This document shows, one piece after another, positions 29,575 to 44,196 of a DNA stretch of 64,000 bases. A program made the translations under genes and the position numbers. The stretch is from Leptolyngbya sp. BC1307 (lineage in GTDB: Bacteria > Cyanobacteriota > Cyanobacteriia > Phormidesmidales > Phormidesmidaceae). Under the pieces are notes generated by a model. It was not told the origin of the DNA and searched no databases. It saw only the letters and a list, made by a program, of their open reading frames with translations. Each line of letters opens with the position of its first letter. Positions within the stretch are counted from its first letter, which is position 1. The stretch is from NCBI RefSeq assembly GCF_002286735.1, contig NZ_NRTA01000002.1:62001-126000 (forward strand), given 5' to 3'.

Positions 29575-30273
29575 TTCCCAGCCTTGAGTGTCTTCTTGTT
29601 CGGCAATCTCATAGTGCAAAACCTCGTGATTCCCATCCGGCCAAACCGCCAGTGCGGTTAAGACGACATGGTCTTGGGCTTGACGCAGTTGGCGGATATG
29701 GCCAGCCCGGTCTACTTTTGTTTCCTCTGAGGTGCAAGTGGCTATCCACCCATACCCCATCAACAATCAGTATTGGCGGCGTTTGGACGAGGGGGCTTGA
29801 CGATGACTGTGCACATGGTTTTGAGCTTCTATCGTCACCCGATTGATGGCACTGACGGACAAAACATTGCCCAATAGATGATACAGCGCTTCCTGTAAGT
29901 CCCTCAACGATAGTCCCATCACATACAGGCTCAACGTGAAGTTGAGCAGGCTCCCCAGGCTCCGATGATACCGCTCAAGGATTTGCCACGACCGTTCTTT
30001 GTTACCACTCCTCAGCTTCGGTACTCGGAGCTTTTCGATCCGTCCCTGCGCTGTGTCTAGTACCCGCGTAAAGTAGCCTGAGCGTCGCCCCACTGCTTCG
30101 CTTTGGCGACACCGCTCTGCCAATAGTTCTTCGACCAGGGCTGCTTCTAGGGTCGCTTTGGTCACACCCACCACCACTTGCCGCAGCTTTGCTGCTAGCG
30201 CTGACGATAATTCCGGTTGGAAGCTCGTCGATTGGATTCGCATTATTTGCGCTTCGCGGTTGCTGTTTTTCAT
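29575..30273 (-). pseudogene. IS256-family transposase, N-terminal part, frameshifted and truncated
   Basis: Reading the minus strand from ATG 30273 (preceded by a GAGGAA site), ~155 residues match a mutator/IS256 transposase: VMGLSLRDLQEALYHLLGN then NRVTIEAQ. A stop comes at 29767; just before it the conserved PPILIVDGVWV piece (with the first DDE Asp) is readable only in a -1 frame, and a few codons on the original frame resumes (TKVDRAGHIRQLRQ...VWPDGNHEVLHYEIAEQED). So two compensating frameshifts lie within about 50 bp. Similarity stops near 29575, leaving the last half of the protein missing. Not functional. Confidence 0.88.
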
Positions 30274-33116: not shown

Positions 33117-33479
33117 ATGGCTATAGATGTTCTACAGAAGCAGGTAGTGGAGTTAAGCAATAAAATTGATGTGCTTCACGTCCTCATGGAGCAGCTGACG
33201 GAAAAGGTATCTGGCATTGCTGCTTTGCAAAATCGTGAATTTGGCAATAGGAACGGGTCTGTCAATCTAGCGCCAGTTGCTTTACCCCGACCGGTAGATC
33301 CCTCTATGACTCACAAAGACATTCTGAGCGATGAGCCCCCTCTCGATGGCAGTCAGTCGAGTTCGCCTCACAATATTTCTCCTGAGATTCAGATTCAGCG
33401 TTTGACGGCGCAGCTAACGGCGGCTTACAACCGCATGGCTGCTTTAGAAGAGCAAATTTTGGCCTGTCGGTTTCAGTAG
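33117..33479 (+). CDS. Hypothetical protein with N- and C-terminal coiled coils
   Basis: A 120-residue soluble protein: N-terminal heptad helix (VLQKQVVELSNKIDVLHVLMEQL), a Pro/Ser-rich flexible middle, and C-terminal helix IQRLTAQLTAAYNRMAALEEQIL. No enzyme motif or known family. It is likely a small oligomeric scaffold or adaptor; that is inference. The first ATG follows a short spacer. It converges with the cobT-like gene, which ends at 33509. Confidence 0.55.
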   Translation: MAIDVLQKQVVELSNKIDVLHVLMEQLTEKVSGIAALQNREFGNRNGSVNLAPVALPRPVDPSMTHKDILSDEPPLDGSQSSSPHNISPEIQIQRLTAQLTAAYNRMAALEEQILACRFQ

Positions 33480-33508: not shown

Positions 33509-34597
33509 CTATTGCCAGATAGCTTGTCGAAGCTGCGCTTCAACGGCATGGCGGAGCTGTGTGGCTGTCCAGTTTTGATGGAGGTGAGCTGCGATCGCAC
33601 AGCCGCCTGCGCCGATGCCTTCTTTGACAAAGCCCCGCTCGTAGGCCCGCAGCTGCAAGTAAGGTGACTGGCTAAAGTTGATCTGACTGGCAAGGTAGGG
33701 CGCACCGACTGATCGGGCGATGGCAGTTGTGTCGGCACTGGCATCTTCTATCACCCAGCGTGTAGTACCGACGACGACTTGCTCTGGGTTCCAGAACAGC
33801 GATCGCCGCATTTTTGGCTGCGAACGAGCTTGCGCGATGGCTTTAGCCAGAGCATAGACGGCCAGCATCTGAGAGCCGCCGGCCAGCAGCACGCCGCAGT
33901 ATTGGCTAGCTGACAGCACCATGCCTGCGGCAACCGCCTGCATAGGGTCACCGACAGCCGCCACCGCTGCCAGCGGCGAAAAACCACCGTGCTGCCGCCA
34001 GACTGACAGCCCCTGCTCAATCAGATGCTGCTTTTGCCGGTGGTTGCCTGCCAGATGACTGCTGCTCATCAGCCCGGCGACCTCATACCCTAGCGCTGTG
34101 AGCACTGCCTGAGCGGTGGTAGTGCCGCCGACTACACATTCACTCACAATTAAGTAGCTATTAAGGCATTGCTGAGCGAGCTGCTGGCCCCAATGCAAGC
34201 CGCTTTCTAGCAGCATGGCTGCCTGGCTGAGCGTCATTGCCTGGCCGGTATGCACGGGTTTAGCGATCGCCTGAGGTAACGCAATATGAGGCACAGTGAG
34301 CGGCGCTGGCAAGCCTGTGCTCAAGAGGTGCATCGGGATAGTTTGCTCAGTGAGCACCGCTCGGGTAATGACGGCTGGTGAAATGCCTGCGGCCAGCCGA
34401 GGGAGAATAGCCCCGGTGTAGAGAAATTCGCAATCGGCTAGGGCGGTGTGACGGCGGGCTTGAGGCGTGTCTCCCGCAGCAGAAATTTGAGGAATAAGCC
34501 CCGTCTCAGTAAAGCTGACAATGCAGACAAATACTGGTTTTTGGCCTCGATAGCGGGCGAGCCAGGGGCGCGGATTAGCGGCGCAGATGCGGATCAC
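33509..34597 (-). CDS. Nicotinate-mononucleotide-dependent phosphoribosyltransferase CobT-like (TIGR00303 type)
   Basis: A 362-residue protein. Features of the TIGR00303 branch are start VIRI(C)AANPRPWLARYRGQKP-like, FVCIVSFTETGLIPQISAAG, VVGGTTTAQAVLTALGY (Gly-rich nucleotide loop), and AVGDPMQAVAAGMVLSASQ. CobT-type enzymes activate the lower base (dimethylbenzimidazole or an analogue) of cobamides. I chose GTG 34597: it lies 17 bp past the DUF2232 stop and gives the family start, whereas longer frames overlap that gene. Cyanobacterial pseudocobalamin uses adenine, so the base is uncertain. Confidence 0.87.
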   Translation of the reverse strand: MIRICAANPRPWLARYRGQKPVFVCIVSFTETGLIPQISAAGDTPQARRHTALADCEFLYTGAILPRLAAGISPAVITRAVLTEQTIPMHLLSTGLPAPLTVPHIALPQAIAKPVHTGQAMTLSQAAMLLESGLHWGQQLAQQCLNSYLIVSECVVGGTTTAQAVLTALGYEVAGLMSSSHLAGNHRQKQHLIEQGLSVWRQHGGFSPLAAVAAVGDPMQAVAAGMVLSASQYCGVLLAGGSQMLAVYALAKAIAQARSQPKMRRSLFWNPEQVVVGTTRWVIEDASADTTAIARSVGAPYLASQINFSQSPYLQLRAYERGFVKEGIGAGGCAIAAHLHQNWTATQLRHAVEAQLRQAIWQ

Positions 34598-34614
34598 AGT
34601 CGGGTTGCTCGCAC

Positions 34615-35457
34615 CTATTCCTCCATGAGCATTTGTACCCAATTGGGCGGCTCTGGCATGGTAACGCCTAAGCGCTCTAACACCAGCCACGCGGCCAGAT
34701 GCACAGTAAATAGATAGACTACGCTGGAAAATAAGACTGACAAGATAGCAGCGATCGCCACCCATTCCATACTCGGTTGCCCCAGAGCCCCTAGCGAAAC
34801 CCAGCCCCAGTTAGTGAGCAGCCGCATGCCCCACTCAAGCATCTGAGTAATTTGAGCAATCAGATAGCCCCAAAAATCTTCTCCGGCCAGCAGCGACAGC
34901 AGCCAGATCCGAAAAAACGTGCCCAGCGCCACCAGAATGGCCCCGGTGATAATTGATACACCCCAGCTTGCTCGCCGCCGCCACAAGCAGCCGAGCTGCA
35001 CCCCCAAAAAGCCGTAGGGCATCACAAAGAAAATGCTGCGGGTGGGGCCTAGCAAAATTGTCAGCAGCAGCCCCGATACGGTAGCCGCCATCCAAGCCGA
35101 ACGTAAATTCCACCGCAGATAAACCAGGGCAATCGGCAGCGGGAATAAAATGCGCAGCAGCGGACCGGGCGGGAAATAGGTGTTGATTAGCCACATCAAG
35201 CTAGCGGCACTGGCTAAAAAAGCGGTTTCTACCAGCGGCAGTGGCCCGATAGCCTGATGGTGAGACCCTGATCCGGCAGCGGGCTTTTCTGCAGTGGGCG
35301 GGCGAGAACCCTCATCGGGCGGAACTGGAAACAGCTCAGCCGAATGCCGCTGGGCGCTGCTGCCTGTGAGCGGGTCAGGGGACGGATCGTCTGAGATCCA
35401 CGGCGCATCATCTTCGGGCGGTAGCTCGTCGGCGTTGGTTGAGGGGGGAAGGTTCAT
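34615..35457 (-). CDS. DUF2232 (YybS-like) membrane protein
   Basis: A 280-residue protein. About 70 N-terminal residues are disordered (acidic, Pro/Ser-rich), then about seven hydrophobic segments (FLASAASLMWLINTYF, AATVSGLLLTILLGPT, GVSIITGAILVALGTFF, IAAILSVLFSSVVYLF). The pattern fits DUF2232; the family is sometimes likened to ECF-transporter S-components, which is a suggestion only. Position in a Crp-DUF2232-CobT operon invites a role in cobamide or precursor handling; inference only. Confidence 0.78.
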   Translation of the reverse strand: MNLPPSTNADELPPEDDAPWISDDPSPDPLTGSSAQRHSAELFPVPPDEGSRPPTAEKPAAGSGSHHQAIGPLPLVETAFLASAASLMWLINTYFPPGPLLRILFPLPIALVYLRWNLRSAWMAATVSGLLLTILLGPTRSIFFVMPYGFLGVQLGCLWRRRASWGVSIITGAILVALGTFFRIWLLSLLAGEDFWGYLIAQITQMLEWGMRLLTNWGWVSLGALGQPSMEWVAIAAILSVLFSSVVYLFTVHLAAWLVLERLGVTMPEPPNWVQMLMEE

Positions 35458-35468
35458 AGGTAATGGCG

Positions 35469-36158
35469 CTATACCAATAAGCTTTCGAGGGCTTCGAGGT
35501 CGATGATTCGTAAGATATCGCGATCGCGCTCAATCAACCCCTTTTTCTCTAACTTACTTAAAACCCGGGTCACTGTCTCTCGCGCTAGCCCGCTCAGCCC
35601 GCTCAGCTCCCGGTGAGGCAAATTGGGAATTTCCATGCCCTGCCCGGCCACTTTGCCCTGCCCATCTGCCAAAAACAAAAGCACATCGGCCACCCGCGAC
35701 TGACTGTCCGACTCGCGCAGTCGCAGTCGACGATTGACCTGGCGCAACCGCCGGGCCATCAGCCGAGCTAGATGCAAGCCCGCTAAGGGCTCAGTATTAA
35801 TGAGATCGACAAAGTACTGGGCAGGCATATTGCCGATTATCGTCGGAGCCAGCGTGATCACATCGGTAGAGCGAGGAACCTCTTCGAGCGGAGCCATCTC
35901 CCCAAAGATTTCCCCTTTCCCTAAAATATTCAGGGTCACTTCCTTCCCATCTAGATTATAGGTGCGAATTTTGACCCAGCCCTCAAGAATAAAATAAACC
36001 GAATTCCCCCAATCGTTTTCTAGCAAAATGACCTGATTGGCCGGGTGTTGGCGCGTAACTACATGAGCAGCGGCCTGCTGAGCTGACCCAAGCGGCAGCT
36101 CGGCAAAGAAGGGAGTTATGCAAATCAGTTCGTTTTGGTCGAGCGCGCGCGCATCCAT
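35469..36158 (-). CDS. Crp/Fnr family transcriptional regulator
   Basis: A 229-residue regulator with an N-terminal cyclic-nucleotide-binding-like domain (VYFILEGWVKI, phosphate-cassette-like region GEIFGEMAPLEEVPRSTDV with the RS pair) and a C-terminal winged HTH (ELSGLSGLARETVTRVLSKLEKKGLI). The Glu-plus-Arg-Ser pattern would allow cAMP binding as in SYCRP1-type proteins; NtcA (which binds 2-oxoglutarate) is less likely from the cassette. It is the first gene of a tight operon (gaps 11 and 17 bp) with DUF2232 and CobT. Confidence 0.88.
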   Translation of the reverse strand: MDARALDQNELICITPFFAELPLGSAQQAAAHVVTRQHPANQVILLENDWGNSVYFILEGWVKIRTYNLDGKEVTLNILGKGEIFGEMAPLEEVPRSTDVITLAPTIIGNMPAQYFVDLINTEPLAGLHLARLMARRLRQVNRRLRLRESDSQSRVADVLLFLADGQGKVAGQGMEIPNLPHRELSGLSGLARETVTRVLSKLEKKGLIERDRDILRIIDLEALESLLV

Positions 36159-36721: not shown

Positions 36722-36763
36722 GTGTACTGGCAAAACCATCGCTTATTATCGCAGGCATCCATT

Positions 36764-39700
36764 GTGACTTCTCAGCAGGATCAGATTAAATCACTCATCG
36801 CTGATATAGAGCGGGCTCTGGTTTCAGAAAAGCCGCGAACGCCTTGGATTAGAGCTAGCGAGGTGGAGCCGCAGCGACAGGCGCTAGCCAAAGCGCAGGA
36901 CTACTTAAAGTCGCTCCAGGAAACATTTGAAGCGCCCGGTGGCTGGGGACCAGTTGACCCCAGCACTGGCCAGATCGCCGCTCAAAAGCCGGCTTCTGGT
37001 AGGCTCGGCAGCGAAGATTTTGAAGGTATATTTAGCAATCGGGCCATGCAGACGCAGCTGTCTGGAGAGTCAGCCTCTGGAGAGTCGGTCTCTGGAGAGT
37101 CGGCAGAAAGTGTGCTGCAGGCGCTGCTGACAGAGATGAAGTTTCTCAAGTCCAGTGCGCTGGAGCCACTGCGTCTGGAGATGGACAGTCTGCGGCAGGA
37201 GCGCGATCGCCTCTATCAAGAAGTCAGAGCGCTAGCCGAACAGCGCCAGACCGCCAGCTTAGAAGCGGACCGCCCGACAGTTGACGATCAGCAGCTCAAC
37301 CAGTTTTTACAGGCGCTGATGGAGCGGTTGCAGGCGAACCTTTCGACTCAGGTCACCCATACTCTGAGCCAGCTAGAGACCGACCATGCTGAAGCCGTCG
37401 CCCGGCTATCGGCAGGTACAGAGCCAGTCCCCTCGCCTGTGACTGCCAGCGCCCAGCTAGAAGAGATGCGTCAGTTACAGTCTCGCTCTGATCAGCTGCT
37501 AGTCAATATCGACTCGACGCTGCAGCGAATGTTTGAGACGCTACAGAGAAATATTGATAGCTATCAGATCTCGCTCAATCAGGGCATTGAAAATATGCAG
37601 AGCCTGGGCCAGCAGGGAGAAGTGATCGTGCGATCGCTCGTCGACCATCTTACCCAGCAGCTCGGTCAGAGTACACCCCCCGAACCCGCTTTTTTCCCGC
37701 CTCGGTCAGCGGCCCCATCAGAACTAGCATTTACAGCCTTTGAAACCGATGACTTAGTCGGTGAATCTGCCAGTGAATCTGCCAGTGAACCTACCGGTGA
37801 TCAAGCTGAAACGACAATAGACACTGTGTTTTCGCTCGATGATATTTTGCCCGATCTGCTGAGTGATGAAGAACCCGACCCCGCACCCGCAGAACCAGCA
37901 GACACGTACTCCTCTACTGAAGAGCAGCCAGAAGACTGCATCCGAGAGGACGGCACCATTGATCTCGATCTGCTGAAGCTGGATATCGACCGCAGAGATG
38001 AAGAAGCGGCAGCGCCTACCTCACCAGATTTGGCGACTGATTGGATTACCGACTCCCCGGATGATCGCAGTCAGCCCGATGGCCCGCTTGCAGCGACCGA
38101 CCCGGCAGGCGCTGGCACAGAAGAGCAGGTTATGCCAACAGCCGATACGGACTATCTAGCGGACCTCACTTTTGAAGATCTCACGATTGATCCAACGCTT
38201 GATGATTCACAAGTGAATCCAGATATCGATCCACTCTCAGCCTCCATCTCCCCGTTAGATGAGCAGCCAGACGAAGAGCCGCTAGTAGAGACTCAACCCG
38301 ATCAGATAGATCACTCAGCGCCAGATTCGCTAGCAGACGCCTTTGAGGTTGATGACGACGACACCGATCTGGCCCGTATCCTGCCAGATCTGGGCGCATC
38401 TATGTCTGAATCTGAGAGCGGGTTACCAGAGTCAGATCTAGAGCCGGAAACAGATCCAGCAATAGAATCAGCGCTAGACATCGAATTCGACCGAAATTTA
38501 GATCTAGATCCAGCGACAGACGAGATCGAGCCAGCCAAGGCCACACTGACTGAGCAGCCCGAATCGTCTCTGGTACCAGATATTCCAGACACAGATGATG
38601 ATGATTTCACGGTTGGTCTAGAGCAACCAGATGACCGAGAAGATCCGCTATCTGCCGAGCTAGTCGCCGAACTAGAAGCCGCCAACCAAGCAGCTGAGCA
38701 AACCGCTGTCGAAACCGTTGACGGCGATCTCAATGCGCTGACTTCGGATCTCGAAGAGGCCGTTGTATTTGAAGCAGCGGCCCCACCCCCCGAAACGCTC
38801 TCTCCGGCATCCCTGCCTTTAGAGTCGGCGCTGATTCCTGACTTGCCCGAAGGTGAAGCGGCAGATTTTCCAGAAGCTGATGATCGCCCGCCGGCTGAAG
38901 CCGAGACAGCAGCTGATGAACCGGGCGATGAGTGGGAACCTGATGAGTGGGAAGCCGGGGATGATTCGCAGGCGTCTCTGCCTCAAGTCGTCGCAGTAGA
39001 TGATGGGCCGTCCGCAGTGCCTGCTGTCGCTGCCACTACGGACGAGTCGGTAGGTCTCGATAAGTTTCTGCTACCAATGGATGCCCCGCCTTTGCCCGAG
39101 CCGCCTTTAGCTACAGAAGCTACAGACGGAACCTCAGCCGATCAATCAGTCATTGATCCGTTTGTGGGGGCTGATTTGTCACCGGATCAGCCAGTCGATG
39201 AGGAAGATGACGATCCGACCGATGGTCAACCGGCTGACTGGTTCTTAGGAATTGACATTGGCACAACCGGCCTGTCAGCAGTGCTGATGAATCAGCGGGG
39301 AGATCAGGTCTATCCCTTGTGCTGGAACATGCTAGGCGACGACCAGTCTGACCGATTTCGCCTACCTGCTGTTGCCCAGATTGATGACCAGACTAGCTTG
39401 CCATTGGGAACCGTCGGGCCAGCTGCGCTTCAGAAATCCACCCCGCTGCTGCGCAACATTAAGCCTTTAGTCAAAATTGGCATTCCCCATGGAATAGCCG
39501 GTGAGCCGCTGGTTCAGTGGTCTGATCAGGTGGCCCTACCGCTGATGTCGGTTTCAAACGGTCTGGCTGATTTACTCAAAACCCTCAGCCCCGATCATCT
39601 TAGCTGCCGCGCGGTAGGGCTAAGAGATAGCGCCTTGCGCCGCGCACTGAGGGATCTGCGGGGGGTGATTGTGGGCTACCCCAATAACTGGCCGGACACC

Positions 39701-40996
39701 TACAGCTTCAATATCCGGGAGGCGGTTTTGGCGGCGGGCTTAGTTGAGCAAGCTGAGCAGATATTTTTTGTGGAAGAGGCGATCGCTGTGCTGCTCTCTG
39801 CCCTACCCGACCCTGAGGAGGCAGATGATCTGCCAGAAGATCAGCAGCCCGGTCTCTACAACTGCAACTGGGCCGGTGGCACGGTGGTAATCAGCGCGGG
39901 TGCTACACTCACCGAGGCGGCCATGGTCAATTTGCCCGCCGACCTCGCTCAACTTAGCTACAAAGATTTTGCGCTGCGCAGCTTTACCTACGCAGGCGAT
40001 GGTCTCGATCAGGATATTGTCTGTCAGCTACTGCATGTGCCAGTGCAAGCTCACATGAAACCTCAGCCGGCAGACCCGGAGGATACAGCGGCAGATACCT
40101 GGCAGGCATTGGGTCTACACCGGCTCGAACTGCCTCAGCCAGGAGAAGCCGACCGGATTAAGCGCCATCGCCTGCAGCAGCGTTTGAATGATTCGCCCTT
40201 GGGCAGGCAGGCATTGGCCGCTGCTCGCCGGATCAAGCTCGCTTTACAGGAAGAAAATCAGTTTGAGCTTGCCCTGGCCGACCAGAGCTGGGTAATCAAG
40301 CGCAAAGACTTAGAGACCAAGGTATTTTTACCCTATGTCCAGCGGATCAACCGGCAGATTAACGGGCTGCTCAGCCAGAAATCGCTCTCGACGCAGGCTG
40401 TGAAGCAGGTGATCTGCACGGGTGGCTCGGCTTCTTTGAGTGCGATCGCTCGCTGGCTGCGGCAAAAGTTTCCCAATGCCACGATCATTCAAGATACCTA
40501 CAGCGGCGAATACTCTAATAGCTGTAGCCGGGTAGCTTACGGTCTGGCTAATCTCTGTCACTACCCGCAGGTGCTCGATACCCATCGCCACCAGTACAGC
40601 GACTATTTTCTGCTGCTAGAGCTGCTGCGCATTTTGCCCGAACAGCCGCTGCCTGCGGGAGGCATTATGCATTTGCTAGAGCAGCGGGGCATTAACACTC
40701 AGGTCTGCCAGTCTCATATCTTGGCGCTGATTGAAGGCCATCTGCCGCCAGGGTTGGTGCCGATTGAAGGCGATCGCCCCTTAATTAGCGCGCAGTCTTC
40801 AGAGATTGATACTTACCGGATGCTGGCAGAGCTGCCTTTGTTTAAAAAGCAAGGGGGCCAGATCTATATCGCCGACCCGCAGCAGGGCGATCGCCTACGC
40901 ACCCATTTAGAAGCCGTCTTAATCAACAAGGCGCAAGCACTGCAAGAGCCTCTGACAGCTCAGCTCGCGCCTGAAACGGTGTTGTCAGCAGATTGA
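36764..40996 (+). CDS. Giant Hsp70-like ATPase with acidic disordered linker
   Basis: A protein of about 1,410 residues. N-terminus (~1-310) is helical with coiled coils (LRLEMDSLRQERDRLYQEVRALAEQ). Residues ~330-830 are low-complexity, very rich in Asp, Glu, Pro and Ser. From ~830 to the end is an Hsp70/actin-fold ATPase: phosphate-1 loop WFLGIDIGTTGLSAVLM near residue 830, VIVGYPNNWPDTYSFNIREA, FFVEEAIAVLLSA, phosphate-2-like GGTVVISAGATL, and the adenosine motif ICTGGSASLSAIARWL near 1,215. No substrate-binding domain of DnaK type. In-frame tandem repeats occur in the linker (37061-37105, 37761-37796). GTG 36764 is preferred; 36722 is an alternative start. Function unknown. Confidence 0.78.
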   Translation: MTSQQDQIKSLIADIERALVSEKPRTPWIRASEVEPQRQALAKAQDYLKSLQETFEAPGGWGPVDPSTGQIAAQKPASGRLGSEDFEGIFSNRAMQTQLSGESASGESVSGESAESVLQALLTEMKFLKSSALEPLRLEMDSLRQERDRLYQEVRALAEQRQTASLEADRPTVDDQQLNQFLQALMERLQANLSTQVTHTLSQLETDHAEAVARLSAGTEPVPSPVTASAQLEEMRQLQSRSDQLLVNIDSTLQRMFETLQRNIDSYQISLNQGIENMQSLGQQGEVIVRSLVDHLTQQLGQSTPPEPAFFPPRSAAPSELAFTAFETDDLVGESASESASEPTGDQAETTIDTVFSLDDILPDLLSDEEPDPAPAEPADTYSSTEEQPEDCIREDGTIDLDLLKLDIDRRDEEAAAPTSPDLATDWITDSPDDRSQPDGPLAATDPAGAGTEEQVMPTADTDYLADLTFEDLTIDPTLDDSQVNPDIDPLSASISPLDEQPDEEPLVETQPDQIDHSAPDSLADAFEVDDDDTDLARILPDLGASMSESESGLPESDLEPETDPAIESALDIEFDRNLDLDPATDEIEPAKATLTEQPESSLVPDIPDTDDDDFTVGLEQPDDREDPLSAELVAELEAANQAAEQTAVETVDGDLNALTSDLEEAVVFEAAAPPPETLSPASLPLESALIPDLPEGEAADFPEADDRPPAEAETAADEPGDEWEPDEWEAGDDSQASLPQVVAVDDGPSAVPAVAATTDESVGLDKFLLPMDAPPLPEPPLATEATDGTSADQSVIDPFVGADLSPDQPVDEEDDDPTDGQPADWFLGIDIGTTGLSAVLMNQRGDQVYPLCWNMLGDDQSDRFRLPAVAQIDDQTSLPLGTVGPAALQKSTPLLRNIKPLVKIGIPHGIAGEPLVQWSDQVALPLMSVSNGLADLLKTLSPDHLSCRAVGLRDSALRRALRDLRGVIVGYPNNWPDTYSFNIREAVLAAGLVEQAEQIFFVEEAIAVLLSALPDPEEADDLPEDQQPGLYNCNWAGGTVVISAGATLTEAAMVNLPADLAQLSYKDFALRSFTYAGDGLDQDIVCQLLHVPVQAHMKPQPADPEDTAADTWQALGLHRLELPQPGEADRIKRHRLQQRLNDSPLGRQALAAARRIKLALQEENQFELALADQSWVIKRKDLETKVFLPYVQRINRQINGLLSQKSLSTQAVKQVICTGGSASLSAIARWLRQKFPNATIIQDTYSGEYSNSCSRVAYGLANLCHYPQVLDTHRHQYSDYFLLLELLRILPEQPLPAGGIMHLLEQRGINTQVCQSHILALIEGHLPPGLVPIEGDRPLISAQSSEIDTYRMLAELPLFKKQGGQIYIADPQQGDRLRTHLEAVLINKAQALQEPLTAQLAPETVLSAD
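37061..37105 (+). repeat. In-frame 15-bp tandem repeat (SGESA/V) in Hsp70-like gene
   Basis: Three units of TCTGGAGAGTCGG.. run head to tail and encode SGESASGESVSGESA. Confidence 0.85.
37761..37796 (+). repeat. In-frame 12-bp tandem repeat (ESAS) in Hsp70-like gene
   Basis: Three units GTGAATCTGCCA (the last degenerate) encode repeated Glu-Ser-Ala-Ser-like tetrapeptides in the acidic linker. Confidence 0.8.
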
Positions 40997-41003
40997 CGTT
41001 CTC

Positions 41004-42509
41004 CTAGGCGACAGCGTCAGAGTCGGGGCCAAAGTAGGTTGGCGTAAAGCTGCCGTGCAGACCATAGGGCACATGGTGCTTGAGCTTGAGCGTTGCCACT
41101 GGGCCAGCGGTAATCTCTTTAGCGTCAAAGATTGCCAGTTCGGTGCGGTGAAACTCAGCGTTGTAAAGCCATAGCAGCAGCCAGCCGTCGTCTTCTTCGG
41201 TGCCGGCTGGGTGGGGCACAAACAGAGGCTCGCCGCCAAATCCGTGCGGCGAGGCGCTCCAGAGCTGCTCTTCACCGGTTTCCAGATCGCGCTTGAGCAA
41301 TGCCTGCAAAGGAGCATTGCCGGTGCTGCTATGGGCCGCGCCTAAGTATAGATAGCGATAGGGGCGACCTACCTTTTGCGGATGCAGGGCTGGAAACTCG
41401 CAGATGCGCTCAACCAACACCTCCACATCGACTTGTGCCGTCGATAAGTCCACCGTAAATCGCCACAGCTTGCTGGTAGGCACATGGTCAAAGTCTACTT
41501 CGCTGTAGTCACTGGCCCCTTCTAGGGTGGGAAACTTCTCGTAGCAGATCGAGTCTAAAATCAGCTTGCCGTCTTGCTCGTAGGCGTTGGCATGGTGAAA
41601 GACAAAGCAGGAGTCGGTTTCAAAAAAGCGGACTTCGCCCTGAGCGTCAGACGCATCACTGCGAGGAATCACAACAATCTTTGTAGGCTGCTTCGGGTTG
41701 AACTGAATGCACTCGGCGGCTCCCTTCCAGCCGATCACAAAGGGCAGCGGGTTAAAGCTCACCGGATTTTGCACAAAAATGCAGTAATTAGGCGTGATCG
41801 CAAAGTCGTGCAGGAAAGCAAAGCCAGGTAGGGTATGGCGAGACTGATCCGCTAGCTGACCGTCTGCGCTAAATTCGTACAGGCTAATCGTGCTAGAAAG
41901 ACCGGGCTTAACGGCAAAATTTACCAGCCGGGCTGCCCCTTCGCGATCAGGGTCAATTTTTGGGTGGGCGGCAAAGGCGTCGCCTTTTTTAAGCAGGCCG
42001 TCGAGATAGTCTAGGCCAAACGTTTCTAATGTCTGCGGGTCGAGGCGGTGAGGCTCTGCAGCTTCCCACAGGGCCAGCAGTTTGCCGCCCCAGTAAATGA
42101 TGTGGGTATTGGCAATATTTTTGAGCTGAGTGTCAAAGGCATTGGCTAGCCAGCCGCCTGGCTTTTGGGTGCCAAAAACGCCTCGATATTCGGGTTTGCC
42201 GCTCTTTTGCTCGGCGACGTAGCCCGCAGTGCGCACAAAGCGATTGCGGTAGAAGGCTTTGCCGTTGGCGATCGCCATTGAGCTAATCATGCCATCGCCA
42301 TCAAACGGGTGGTGCAGGGGGTAGCCGTTAATATCGGTCAGCCCTGGCCCATTGCGAAAGACGGTTCCAGAGAGTTCCAGCGGAATTTCGCCCTCAATAT
42401 CGTCTACCCAGTAGGCAAACTCTTCGGGCTGCGACAGGTAGCCGCTTTTCCAGTCTTCTCTAGCGTAGGCAGTCGATGAGTCACGAGAGGATGATTGCAG
42501 CGTTTGCAT
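41004..42509 (-). CDS. Carotenoid oxygenase (apocarotenoid-cleaving, RPE65/CCD family)
   Basis: A 501-residue CCD enzyme. Non-haem iron His ligands are visible in the expected spots: FAAHPKIDP, FLHDFAITPNY, FVFHHANAYEQDG and HGSFTP near the C-terminus. FRNGPGLTDINGYPLHHPFDGDGMI is the conserved N-terminal propeller-entry block. Size fits the cyanobacterial apocarotenoid 15,15'-oxygenase (Diox1) type, which makes retinal from apocarotenals; the substrate is not proved. No signal peptide. It precedes the BT1-type carrier on the same strand (63 bp gap). Confidence 0.92.
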   Translation of the reverse strand: MQTLQSSSRDSSTAYAREDWKSGYLSQPEEFAYWVDDIEGEIPLELSGTVFRNGPGLTDINGYPLHHPFDGDGMISSMAIANGKAFYRNRFVRTAGYVAEQKSGKPEYRGVFGTQKPGGWLANAFDTQLKNIANTHIIYWGGKLLALWEAAEPHRLDPQTLETFGLDYLDGLLKKGDAFAAHPKIDPDREGAARLVNFAVKPGLSSTISLYEFSADGQLADQSRHTLPGFAFLHDFAITPNYCIFVQNPVSFNPLPFVIGWKGAAECIQFNPKQPTKIVVIPRSDASDAQGEVRFFETDSCFVFHHANAYEQDGKLILDSICYEKFPTLEGASDYSEVDFDHVPTSKLWRFTVDLSTAQVDVEVLVERICEFPALHPQKVGRPYRYLYLGAAHSSTGNAPLQALLKRDLETGEEQLWSASPHGFGGEPLFVPHPAGTEEDDGWLLLWLYNAEFHRTELAIFDAKEITAGPVATLKLKHHVPYGLHGSFTPTYFGPDSDAVA

Positions 42510-42572
42510 AAGAGGATAGAGGAGGTGGGTTAGAGGAGGTGGATTTATATCAAAATTTGTGAGGCTTTCGGC

Positions 42573-44030
42573 TTAGACTGTGGCATCTAGCGCCGCTGCC
42601 TCTTCGGTGATTTCAGGGGTAGATAGGGCGATCGCCGGTTCTCCTTTAAGCGCCGAACCCACCGGATTTTGAGCAGAAACGGCTGTCTCCGGCGGATCCC
42701 CTGTTACAGTGCCGACAGCAGAGGCTTCCGGTAAAAGGCTCAGCAGTGGCAGCGGCAGTAAGGTAGTGAGGTTGGTCAGCAGCACCAGTAACCACAAATT
42801 GCCAAACTCAGTTTCGGTAACGTGTAGCCAGTGAGTTAGCAGCGCGCCTAGCTCATGAGAAAGCAGACCCGCCAGATTAACCACTGACATCAATAGGGCA
42901 AACAGAGTCGCTTCGACACCCGGCGGACAGAGCCGCGCCGACAGCACTAGCACCGGCATAAAGGCAATTTGACCGGCGACCGTCAGCACCAAACTATCGC
43001 CCAGGCTAAACCACCGATCGTCAATGCCTAGGGCTCGGTTGGCGTGAGTGACCAGCAGCAGCATTGTCATTCCGAGCAGAGCCGACAGCACGGTAGACCA
43101 GCCAAAAATCTTGCGAAAAGAAACTTCCTTCAGAAAGCGCTGAAAAATCCAAATGCCCATCAGAGAAGCAAAGCTAGTCACCAGTCGTACCCGTCCCAAA
43201 AACTCAGGTTCGAACCCCAGCTCATTGGTCGAGAAAAAGAAAAAGGCCGAATCGGCAGTTGGGGTCGCCTGCCACAAAAACAAAAACAAAGCAGGCATCC
43301 AGATTGCCCTTTGAGAAACCGCTCCTTTGAGCAGCTTCACCTGATTAATAACGACTTTCAGGTTCGATTGCTCAGCTACTGGGTCTTCAGAAATCAGCCA
43401 GGCAACAGCCGATACCACCAGCGGGAAGGTCGCCGTAATCCCAAAGACCGTCTGGGTACTGGTGTGCTCTAGCAGCAGACCGCCCAGGTAGGCCGTAATT
43501 AAGCCGCCAACTGCCGAAGCGCCCCAGGCCAGGGACTGTAGCGTACCCACATCACCCTGTTCTTCTTCGCGAGCGCGCTCTACCACCAGCGAATCGACAA
43601 TCACATCTGAAATTGCTACCGATAGTGACGACAGCAAAATCGCAGCAGTCGCGGCTATTGCGGTGTGAACGACCGTTGCCATTGAAAGCCAGGCGATCGC
43701 CCCCAACCCACCCGAAATAACCAGGTAGGGCCGCCGCCGGTAGCGAAAAATCGGCAACCCGTCTGACAAAAAGCCAAACACTGGCTTGATAGTCCATGGC
43801 AGCGCCGCCACTCCCATCAGCGCTGACACTTCCGCCGGCGAAAGCGCGATGTCATCTTTCAAGAAAAAGCTCACAGCCAGCCGGGCCAACCCTAAAACGC
43901 CCTGAACAAAATACACCAGTAAAATGGCACTCAGCTCTAGCGTGAGCGGCTGACCCAGCAAGATGCGCCGTTCTATAAAGCCTTTTGCCTTTTGGCCGAT
44001 AGAATGGTCAGAAGGGGAGGACGCTGTCAT
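42573..44030 (-). CDS. Folate-biopterin transporter (BT1/FBT) family, MFS
   Basis: A 485-residue membrane protein with about 12 hydrophobic segments. LPWTIKPVFGFLSDGLPIFRYRRRPYL is the BT1/FBT signature loop; YFVQGVLGLARLAVSFFLKDD at the start and SDVIVDSLVVERAR are also typical. Cyanobacterial and plastid members (slr0642-type) transport folate or pterins. Start ATG 44030 is preferred; 44057 would add nine residues. It lies upstream of the carotenoid oxygenase gene on the same strand, with a short gap, so co-transcription is plausible. Confidence 0.9.
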   Translation of the reverse strand: MTASSPSDHSIGQKAKGFIERRILLGQPLTLELSAILLVYFVQGVLGLARLAVSFFLKDDIALSPAEVSALMGVAALPWTIKPVFGFLSDGLPIFRYRRRPYLVISGGLGAIAWLSMATVVHTAIAATAAILLSSLSVAISDVIVDSLVVERAREEEQGDVGTLQSLAWGASAVGGLITAYLGGLLLEHTSTQTVFGITATFPLVVSAVAWLISEDPVAEQSNLKVVINQVKLLKGAVSQRAIWMPALFLFLWQATPTADSAFFFFSTNELGFEPEFLGRVRLVTSFASLMGIWIFQRFLKEVSFRKIFGWSTVLSALLGMTMLLLVTHANRALGIDDRWFSLGDSLVLTVAGQIAFMPVLVLSARLCPPGVEATLFALLMSVVNLAGLLSHELGALLTHWLHVTETEFGNLWLLVLLTNLTTLLPLPLLSLLPEASAVGTVTGDPPETAVSAQNPVGSALKGEPAIALSTPEITEEAAALDATV

Positions 44031-44196
44031 ATCAACCAGTATCAATTCACAACCCATGATAACCGGCTTCTCTCAGTTGTTAAGAAAAGTATCACCACCG
44101 ACAGATCGCCAACTCTCTACAGATAGGGAATTAAGAGATAAGAAATCAGGAATTTGAGACTATGCTGACTAAAAGTGTGACTTCAAACGTAAACCC

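Follow-up and report, generated by a model that had tools for sequence, protein, structure and literature searches.

What kind of protein carries an Hsp70/actin-type nucleotide-binding head behind some 500 strongly acidic residues, and why do several of its relatives encode this head in a different reading frame from the parts in front of it? These questions are raised by a gene at positions 36764-40996 of the window (by which we mean the whole analyzed stretch of 64,000 nucleotides (nt) from Leptolyngbya sp. BC1307, contig NZ_NRTA01000002.1, positions 62,001 to 126,000 of the forward strand). As the probable answer we propose that the product is a scaffold with an ATP-switch head, and that in many relatives the ratio of headed to headless protein is set by slippage of RNA polymerase on a run of nine to eleven adenines (A9-A11) at the joint of the two parts. 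Recoding at the joint in these relatives is, judging from their sequences, very likely; if it is real, it would with good probability be transcriptional rather than ribosomal. The role of the protein as a switch on a scaffold is proposed more tentatively, at somewhat less than an even chance.

A gene of three parts

The gene lies in an open frame of 1424 codons (36722-40996, forward strand), closed by TGA. Translation probably starts at GTG 36764, the position at which 33 of the 34 rows of our alignment A2 begin with M or V, usually as M-T-S. From its N-terminus the protein consists of a helical base, an acidic linker, a head of the Hsp70/actin fold and a conserved extension of the head:

36764..40996, forward strand: whole gene, 1410 amino acids (aa), GTG start backed by conservation in A2, TGA stop
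36764..37690, forward strand: N-terminal helical base, residues 1-309, helices predicted at 2-20, 31-56, 112-167, 175-217 and 228-302
37061..37104, forward strand: 15-bp tandem repeat, 2.9 copies, SGESA-type, in the N-terminal region
37691..39232, forward strand: acidic linker, residues 310-823, of variable length and conserved composition in relatives
37761..37800, forward strand: 12-bp tandem repeat, 3.3 copies, ESAS-type, at the start of the linker
39236..40555, forward strand: actin/Hsp70-fold nucleotide-binding head, residues 825-1264, with D831 invariant, N1035 at phosphate 2, and TGG 1219-1221 invariant in its own family
40556..40963, forward strand: C-terminal extension belonging to the head (residues 1265-1400), conserved and for the most part helical

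This three-part architecture, as read from the sequence, is hardly open to doubt. A preliminary description of the locus had claimed an arrangement unlike that of DnaK, MreB or FtsA, and we agree. The scan of the parts of the protein against Pfam and NCBIfam found no family over its cut-off, and searches of PHROGs and of PDB sequences returned no useful match. The tandem repeats that it had placed in frame in the linker both exist, although the one at 37061-37104 sits in the N-terminal region.

By sequence comparison the gene is no stray fusion; it has a counterpart in most of the 58 genomes searched with the whole protein, with linkers of the same acidic make-up. The whole protein finds a match at E <= 0.001 in 51 of 58 genomes, its own included, a count that takes in partial matches (in G012 and G033 only the N-terminal half matches, in G054 only the helical region, and weakly). 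The head finds a match at E <= 1e-3 in 77 of 292 genomes drawn from the phylum, 63 of them below 1e-20 and 14 weaker. Scanning named genomes for a sequence pattern, a method that reaches no more than close relatives, yielded 48 confirmed loci; all bear cyanobacterial titles and are mostly Leptolyngbyaceae-like, with one Nostoc. No match to the head was found in plasmid records.

The joint between linker and head in related genomes

Several relatives encode base plus linker and head in different frames. In a first set of loci, nine overlapping joints among L085-L113 carry A9 or A10; the overlapping cases without a run are L087, where start and stop overlap as ATGA, and L032 and L066, whose breaks lie far from the head. 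The joint was read at one locus in each of 142 mapped genomes, of which 139 remained after L087, L110 and L111 had been dropped (head start unreadable). Family f29, the target of a search of its own, provides 52 of the 139 joints (52 of its 59 matching genomes were read), many of them from one genus, so that the totals are not natural frequencies; the named loci L032-L079 stand outside the count and mostly repeat the same genomes. The gene is fused without a run in 56 genomes and with a run of at least nine As in 26; it is split in 36 with an overlap that contains the run and in 18 without a run, and in three genomes no base frame was found. A conserved run of at least nine As at a frame junction, which serves as a criterion for programmed slippage, is found in the relatives, where 62 of the 139 genomes and 15 of the 24 family groups have A9-A11 just upstream of the head; it occurs in none of the 29 readable members of the family to which the window belongs (f1), the window included, where the gene is plainly fused. 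The run is exactly A10 in 51 of the 62 genomes, and also at L074 (Nostoc sp. FACHB-152) and L075, both outside the count. Base and head are in frame across the run in 26 genomes, at -1 in 32 and at +1 in four (G057, G064, G091 and G037, from four family groups).

Among split genes, a run of at least nine As within 700 nt before the head is present in 36 of 39 overlapping splits and in none of 15 gap splits (Fisher 9e-11). The search covered these 700 nt irrespective of overlap, with 36/36 for the splits with the run in the overlap, 0/3 for the other overlapping ones (G160, G259 and G387, the last with A8) and 0/15 for the gap splits. The head has its own ATG in 14 of the 15 gap splits versus 11 of the 36 run splits, and in 14 of these 36 the stretch that leads from the point where the head frame opens to the head contains neither ATG nor GTG nor TTG. 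We considered simple gene fission as the general cause of split frames; it fits the 15 gap splits and L087 but was rejected as an explanation of the 36 overlapping ones that carry a run. The gap splits are, from their sequences, a third arrangement of base and head.

A head encoded as a gene of its own, with ATG and no A run of nine, was seen in the gap splits L107, L109, L114, L115, L116, L117, L151, L163, L165, L183, L190, L197, L204 and L205.

The placement of the run is not due to chance, since 33 loci with 1,170,462 strand-bases contain 18 runs of A9 or more, 14 of which are at the joint. Stop codons often follow it closely: in 27 of the 36 shifted genomes the base frame meets a stop no more than 15 nt from the run (0.75 vs 0.16 after shuffling the downstream codons), and in fused genes with the run a shifted frame stops within 8 nt in 15 of 26 (0.58 vs 0.16 shuffled), many of the genomes in both counts belonging to one genus. 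If one considers the 13 family groups with a single run-bearing genome each, the relevant stop lies within 15 nt in nine. In family f28 the run is found in 10 of 30 genes, always as exactly A10, and nine of these runs code for E-K-K-K.

The run stays where the phase changes. On a tree of 100 heads, 16 phase changes are needed among the 42 run-bearing rows, an approximate count from a quick tree with long branches, and even close congeners differ, for instance G347 (in frame) from G149 (-1). Such broken frames could be homopolymer sequencing errors or signs of decaying pseudogenes: A10 runs are error-prone, G091 is distinguished from its near neighbors solely by A11 instead of A10, and two loci from metagenome-assembled genomes (L076 and L077, uncounted) have several broken frames and no run, probably through misassembly. 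We nevertheless regard this explanation as very improbable, as the run with its close stop recurs in many genomes, including the single-contig G149, G369 and G039, the nearby stop is enriched over shuffles, and the head is conserved in the 42 run-bearing genomes whose sequence sufficed for the tree. Moreover, compared with in-frame joints, most -1 joints of genus g44 lack one base next to the run and do not differ in the length of the run itself.

A frame change could also be made by the ribosome, through ordinary -1 frameshifting on A-rich slippery codons, of which dnaX of E. coli is reportedly a case. The heptamer A AAA AAA is contained in every A9-A11 run, and -1 is the shift required in 32 of the 36 shifted genomes; the other four, from four family groups, require +1. 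A slippery heptamer would serve only the former, while a polymerase that gains or loses As would serve both, which favors transcriptional slippage. In addition, RNA folding is not in excess in the 60 nt that follow the run (mean z +0.2 for 35 distinct stretches, against mononucleotide shuffles), and the predominant A10 is longer than a slippery heptamer needs. We therefore consider ribosomal frameshifting unlikely.

The head: fold and active site

The C-terminal 591 residues were modelled by AlphaFold2 from 46 aligned relatives (alignment A1) with a predicted local distance difference test (pLDDT) score of 88.1 and a predicted template modelling (pTM) score of 0.90. The Hsp70/actin-type core claimed in the preliminary description is confirmed by the predicted fold and by its comparison with known structures (Foldseek, VIA-align), in which only Hsp70-type chains and MreB appear among the 50 matches listed: DnaK with Z 23.4 and a root-mean-square deviation (rmsd) of 4.2 over 372 aligned residues, and MreB, second to the Hsp70-type chains with a lower rmsd, with Z 21.2 and rmsd 3.0 over 293. 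Profile-profile comparison of the head with DnaK paralogues of the same genome gave a probability of 83 (E 9e-6).

Visible phosphate 1, phosphate 2 and adenosine motifs had been claimed earlier, and from them a likely intact nucleotide fold. As regards the motifs, this holds for the Asp of phosphate 1 (D831), kept in 30/30 sequences of the family and in 100/100 heads of all families, and for the adenosine TGG, but fails for phosphate 2. That site, as placed by profile alignment with DnaK, reads N1035-W-A-G-G-T and not DLGGGT, and its Asp is present in only 4/30 sequences of the family and 7/100 heads of all families (13/100 are gapped at this column). In all, this residue is missing from 93 of the 100 aligned heads. 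By analogy with Hsp70 and actin, hydrolysis by such a head would be slow or absent. The head, to judge by sequence and model, thus keeps the nucleotide-binding fold with an altered active site, and since the catalytic Asp is missing, slow switching by ATP is more likely its task than fast ATP turnover; given the Asp present in 7/100 heads, some members of the family may still hydrolyze ATP.

Could the head nevertheless act as a working Hsp70-type chaperone or co-chaperone, with clients brought by the helical base? Its nearest solved folds among the matches listed are of the DnaK/Hsp70 type, there are weak matches to the HscA and PRK11678 profiles of NCBIfam (E 1.4e-6 and 5.7e-4), and some of the head alignments run somewhat beyond the nucleotide-binding domain of full-length DnaK, to residue 409 in the profile comparison and to about 480-500 in some fold rows. 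These profile scores are, however, far under the cut-offs (27 vs 709 and 19 vs 331), and the score against Hsp70 itself (PF00012, 12.0 bits, E 0.059) is under the curated 20.6 bits. The usual substrate-binding domain, already noted as absent in the preliminary description, is not found: the 146 residues after 1264 are predicted as mostly helical, with two short strands and no beta-sandwich in the model, and their Pfam scan gave no match. Together with the Asp missing from most heads, this makes a chaperone improbable.

We give a similarly low probability to a head that polymerizes like actin or MreB, in a cytoskeletal filament or in a membrane adaptor of the PilM/FtsA type. The fit to MreB comes close to that of DnaK, and PF11104 (PilM_2) matches weakly (E 0.003, 17.0 bits, cut-off 27). 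This match is confined to a stretch of 67 residues that includes the adenosine motif and its surroundings, the four conserved neighbors of the gene (see below) include no pil, fts or mre gene, and an acidic tether of 400-1700 residues on each subunit would be expected to hamper a tight filament.

Base and linker

The base was modelled by AlphaFold2 as long helices with low overall confidence (pTM 0.27), in line with the helical N-terminus described previously. Its region from about residue 100 to 310 recurs at the N-terminus of EamA-type transporters of 598-616 residues (L080-L082; 28-31% identity, E 1e-10 to 2e-12), and a further such protein is encoded near a base gene:

L080, 3414-5210: EamA-type transporter, about 600 aa, whose additional helical domain at the N-terminus is related to the base
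L081, 3508-5316: the same type, related to the base
L082, 1988-3838, reverse strand: the same type, related to the base
L093, 16112-18061: the same type, about 2.6 kb from the base gene

The occurrence of the region in transporters suggests an interaction or oligomerization module that is used twice. In the genome of BC1307 itself no relative of the N-terminal region was found apart from the gene, and with the best EamA-type match there (L234) only the transporter part aligned. We had suspected that the proteins of about 600 aa that share the helical region are HmpF; L080-L082 and L093 turned out to be EamA-type transporters, an assignment that includes no comparison with HmpF itself. The accessible part of a study of type IV pili (T4P) and DnaK1 (PMC9239167) contains no tie to the present gene.

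The very acidic linker of about 500 residues noted in the preliminary description is present as residues 310-823, with a net charge of about -135; residues 331-847 contain 17.2% Asp and 11.4% Glu (28.6% together) and have a net charge of -136. Variation in its length, also anticipated there, is real: in 39 full-length frames, five pairs of which look like one genome held twice, linkers measure 394-1679 residues, with 16-30% Asp plus Glu, 1-8% Lys plus Arg and net charges from -53 to -393. A length that varies while acidity stays fits a disordered tether, which the linker probably is.

Gene neighborhood

Four genes of the window recur near the gene in relatives:

35469..36158, reverse strand: Crp/Fnr-type regulator, divergent neighbor
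34615..35457, reverse strand: DUF2232 membrane protein
33509..34765, reverse strand: CobT-like phosphoribosyltransferase (TIGR00303), its true start probably inside the frame
33117..33479, forward strand: small protein with a SlyX-like match under the Pfam cut-off

In 39 compared loci of up to 22 kb each, the window included, the Crp/Fnr-type gene is present in 31, DUF2232 in 32, the CobT-like gene in 27 and the SlyX-like gene in 20; in most cases they form a divergent cluster ahead of the gene. This linkage may simply reflect old synteny. Among candidate regulators of the gene, the divergent Crp/Fnr-type one comes first. Behind the gene, at 41004-44057, an RPE65-type dioxygenase and a BT1/folate-biopterin transporter are encoded, which the window has in common only with L033, L037 and L095 among the 39 loci. 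In family f27, L110 and L111 contain shortened head genes of 415 and 585 aa with no base detected, near Crp/Fnr (L110) or DUF2232 (L111). Elsewhere in the window we noted a perfect 13-bp tandem repeat (CCCTAATATTTGG, 5.1 copies, 157-222) and a short frame at 29767-30273 that, by eye, resembles a fragment of a mutator-type transposase.

Relation to known systems

With Hsp70/DnaK, HscA and YegD-type proteins the head shares the nucleotide-binding fold and the phosphate 1 and adenosine motifs; it differs from them in having, according to the model, no beta-sandwich domain and a mostly helical C-terminal extension of its own, in the missing phosphate-2 Asp, and in the helical base and acidic tether in front. 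The actin-superfamily fold is likewise shared with MreB/ParM-type actins. FcmB of filamentous cyanobacteria, described in the accessible text of PMC12645912 as a ParM-like actin with a downstream fcmC gene, is also cyanobacterial; by that description it is set apart from the present protein, which has base, tether and head in one gene and other neighbors. PilM resembles the head weakly around the adenosine motif, under the Pfam cut-off, and the conserved Crp/Fnr, DUF2232, CobT-like and SlyX-like neighbors are not pil genes.

Transcriptional slippage itself is a known phenomenon. In the portion of PMC1088944 available, dnaX of Thermus is treated as a slippage gene, and A8-A10 runs in insertion sequence (IS) elements of Nostoc PCC 7120 are proposed as slippage sites by comparison; the available portion of PMC4256274 reports tssM of Citrobacter and Yersinia as slippage genes, with two protein lengths from an A11 run in Citrobacter, both needed, proven by experiment. 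As far as these sources go, the relatives of our gene resemble all three in a run of 8-11 As, in the in-frame/out-of-frame arrangement and in two product lengths, which here are deduced from the sequence. They differ from them by being chromosomal genes with the site in 15 of the 24 cyanobacterial family groups read and with a phase that varies among close relatives. A search of open-licence literature, whose coverage does not extend to subscription papers and supplements, turned up no publication that deals with this gene or with its A run. Both slippage and the Hsp70/actin fold are already known, and the protein family with its conserved site appears to be a new form of them.

Proposed mechanism and significance

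From what is seen directly in the sequences (the architecture and its conservation, the missing Asp, the run, the phases and the stops behind the run) we infer the following mechanism. The helical and probably oligomeric base would assemble and bear the long acidic tether. The head, where present, would bind ATP and thereby change its shape or partners, as a conformational switch rather than a fast ATPase or classical chaperone. In genomes with the run, RNA polymerase would slip on it, so that some mRNAs yield base and tether, ending soon past the Lys stretch, and others the full-length protein. The resulting assemblies would mix headed and headless subunits, and the polymerase would fix their ratio in any genomic phase, which would explain how the phase can drift. 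In the family of the window, without the run, only the fused protein is encoded. We see an even chance that an old slippage site has been kept as A9-A11 across much of the cyanobacterial radiation, with its frame drifting freely and the ratio of headless to ATP-headed protein set there, while the lineage of the window lacks such control, with a permanently fused gene and often a much longer tether.

Several observations weigh against the proposed mechanism. The gene of the window has no run itself, and f29 dominates the counts, so that the genomes are not independent. Some start codon precedes the head in 22 of the 36 shifted genomes, which leaves room for separate initiation. In four of the 13 family groups with a single run-bearing genome the stop is farther off (16, 20, 75 and 94 nt), and in f28, where two thirds of the genes lack the run, the shifted-frame stops are 11-78 nt away, so that the short product need not be programmed there. 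The low confidence of the base model and the heads that retain the phosphate-2 Asp count on the same side.

If the proposal is true, a large conserved cyanobacterial gene that in many genomes looks like two pieces or a frameshifted pseudogene is a single gene subject to recoding. Its slippage site would then, in our judgement from a few papers, be conserved over an unusually wide range, given that the gene is chromosomal and not mobile. The protein would also represent a cyanobacterial kind of Hsp70/actin fold, tethered to a scaffold through hundreds of acidic residues. The naturally fused, slipping and two-gene relatives would then provide a ready set for probing the function of the head.

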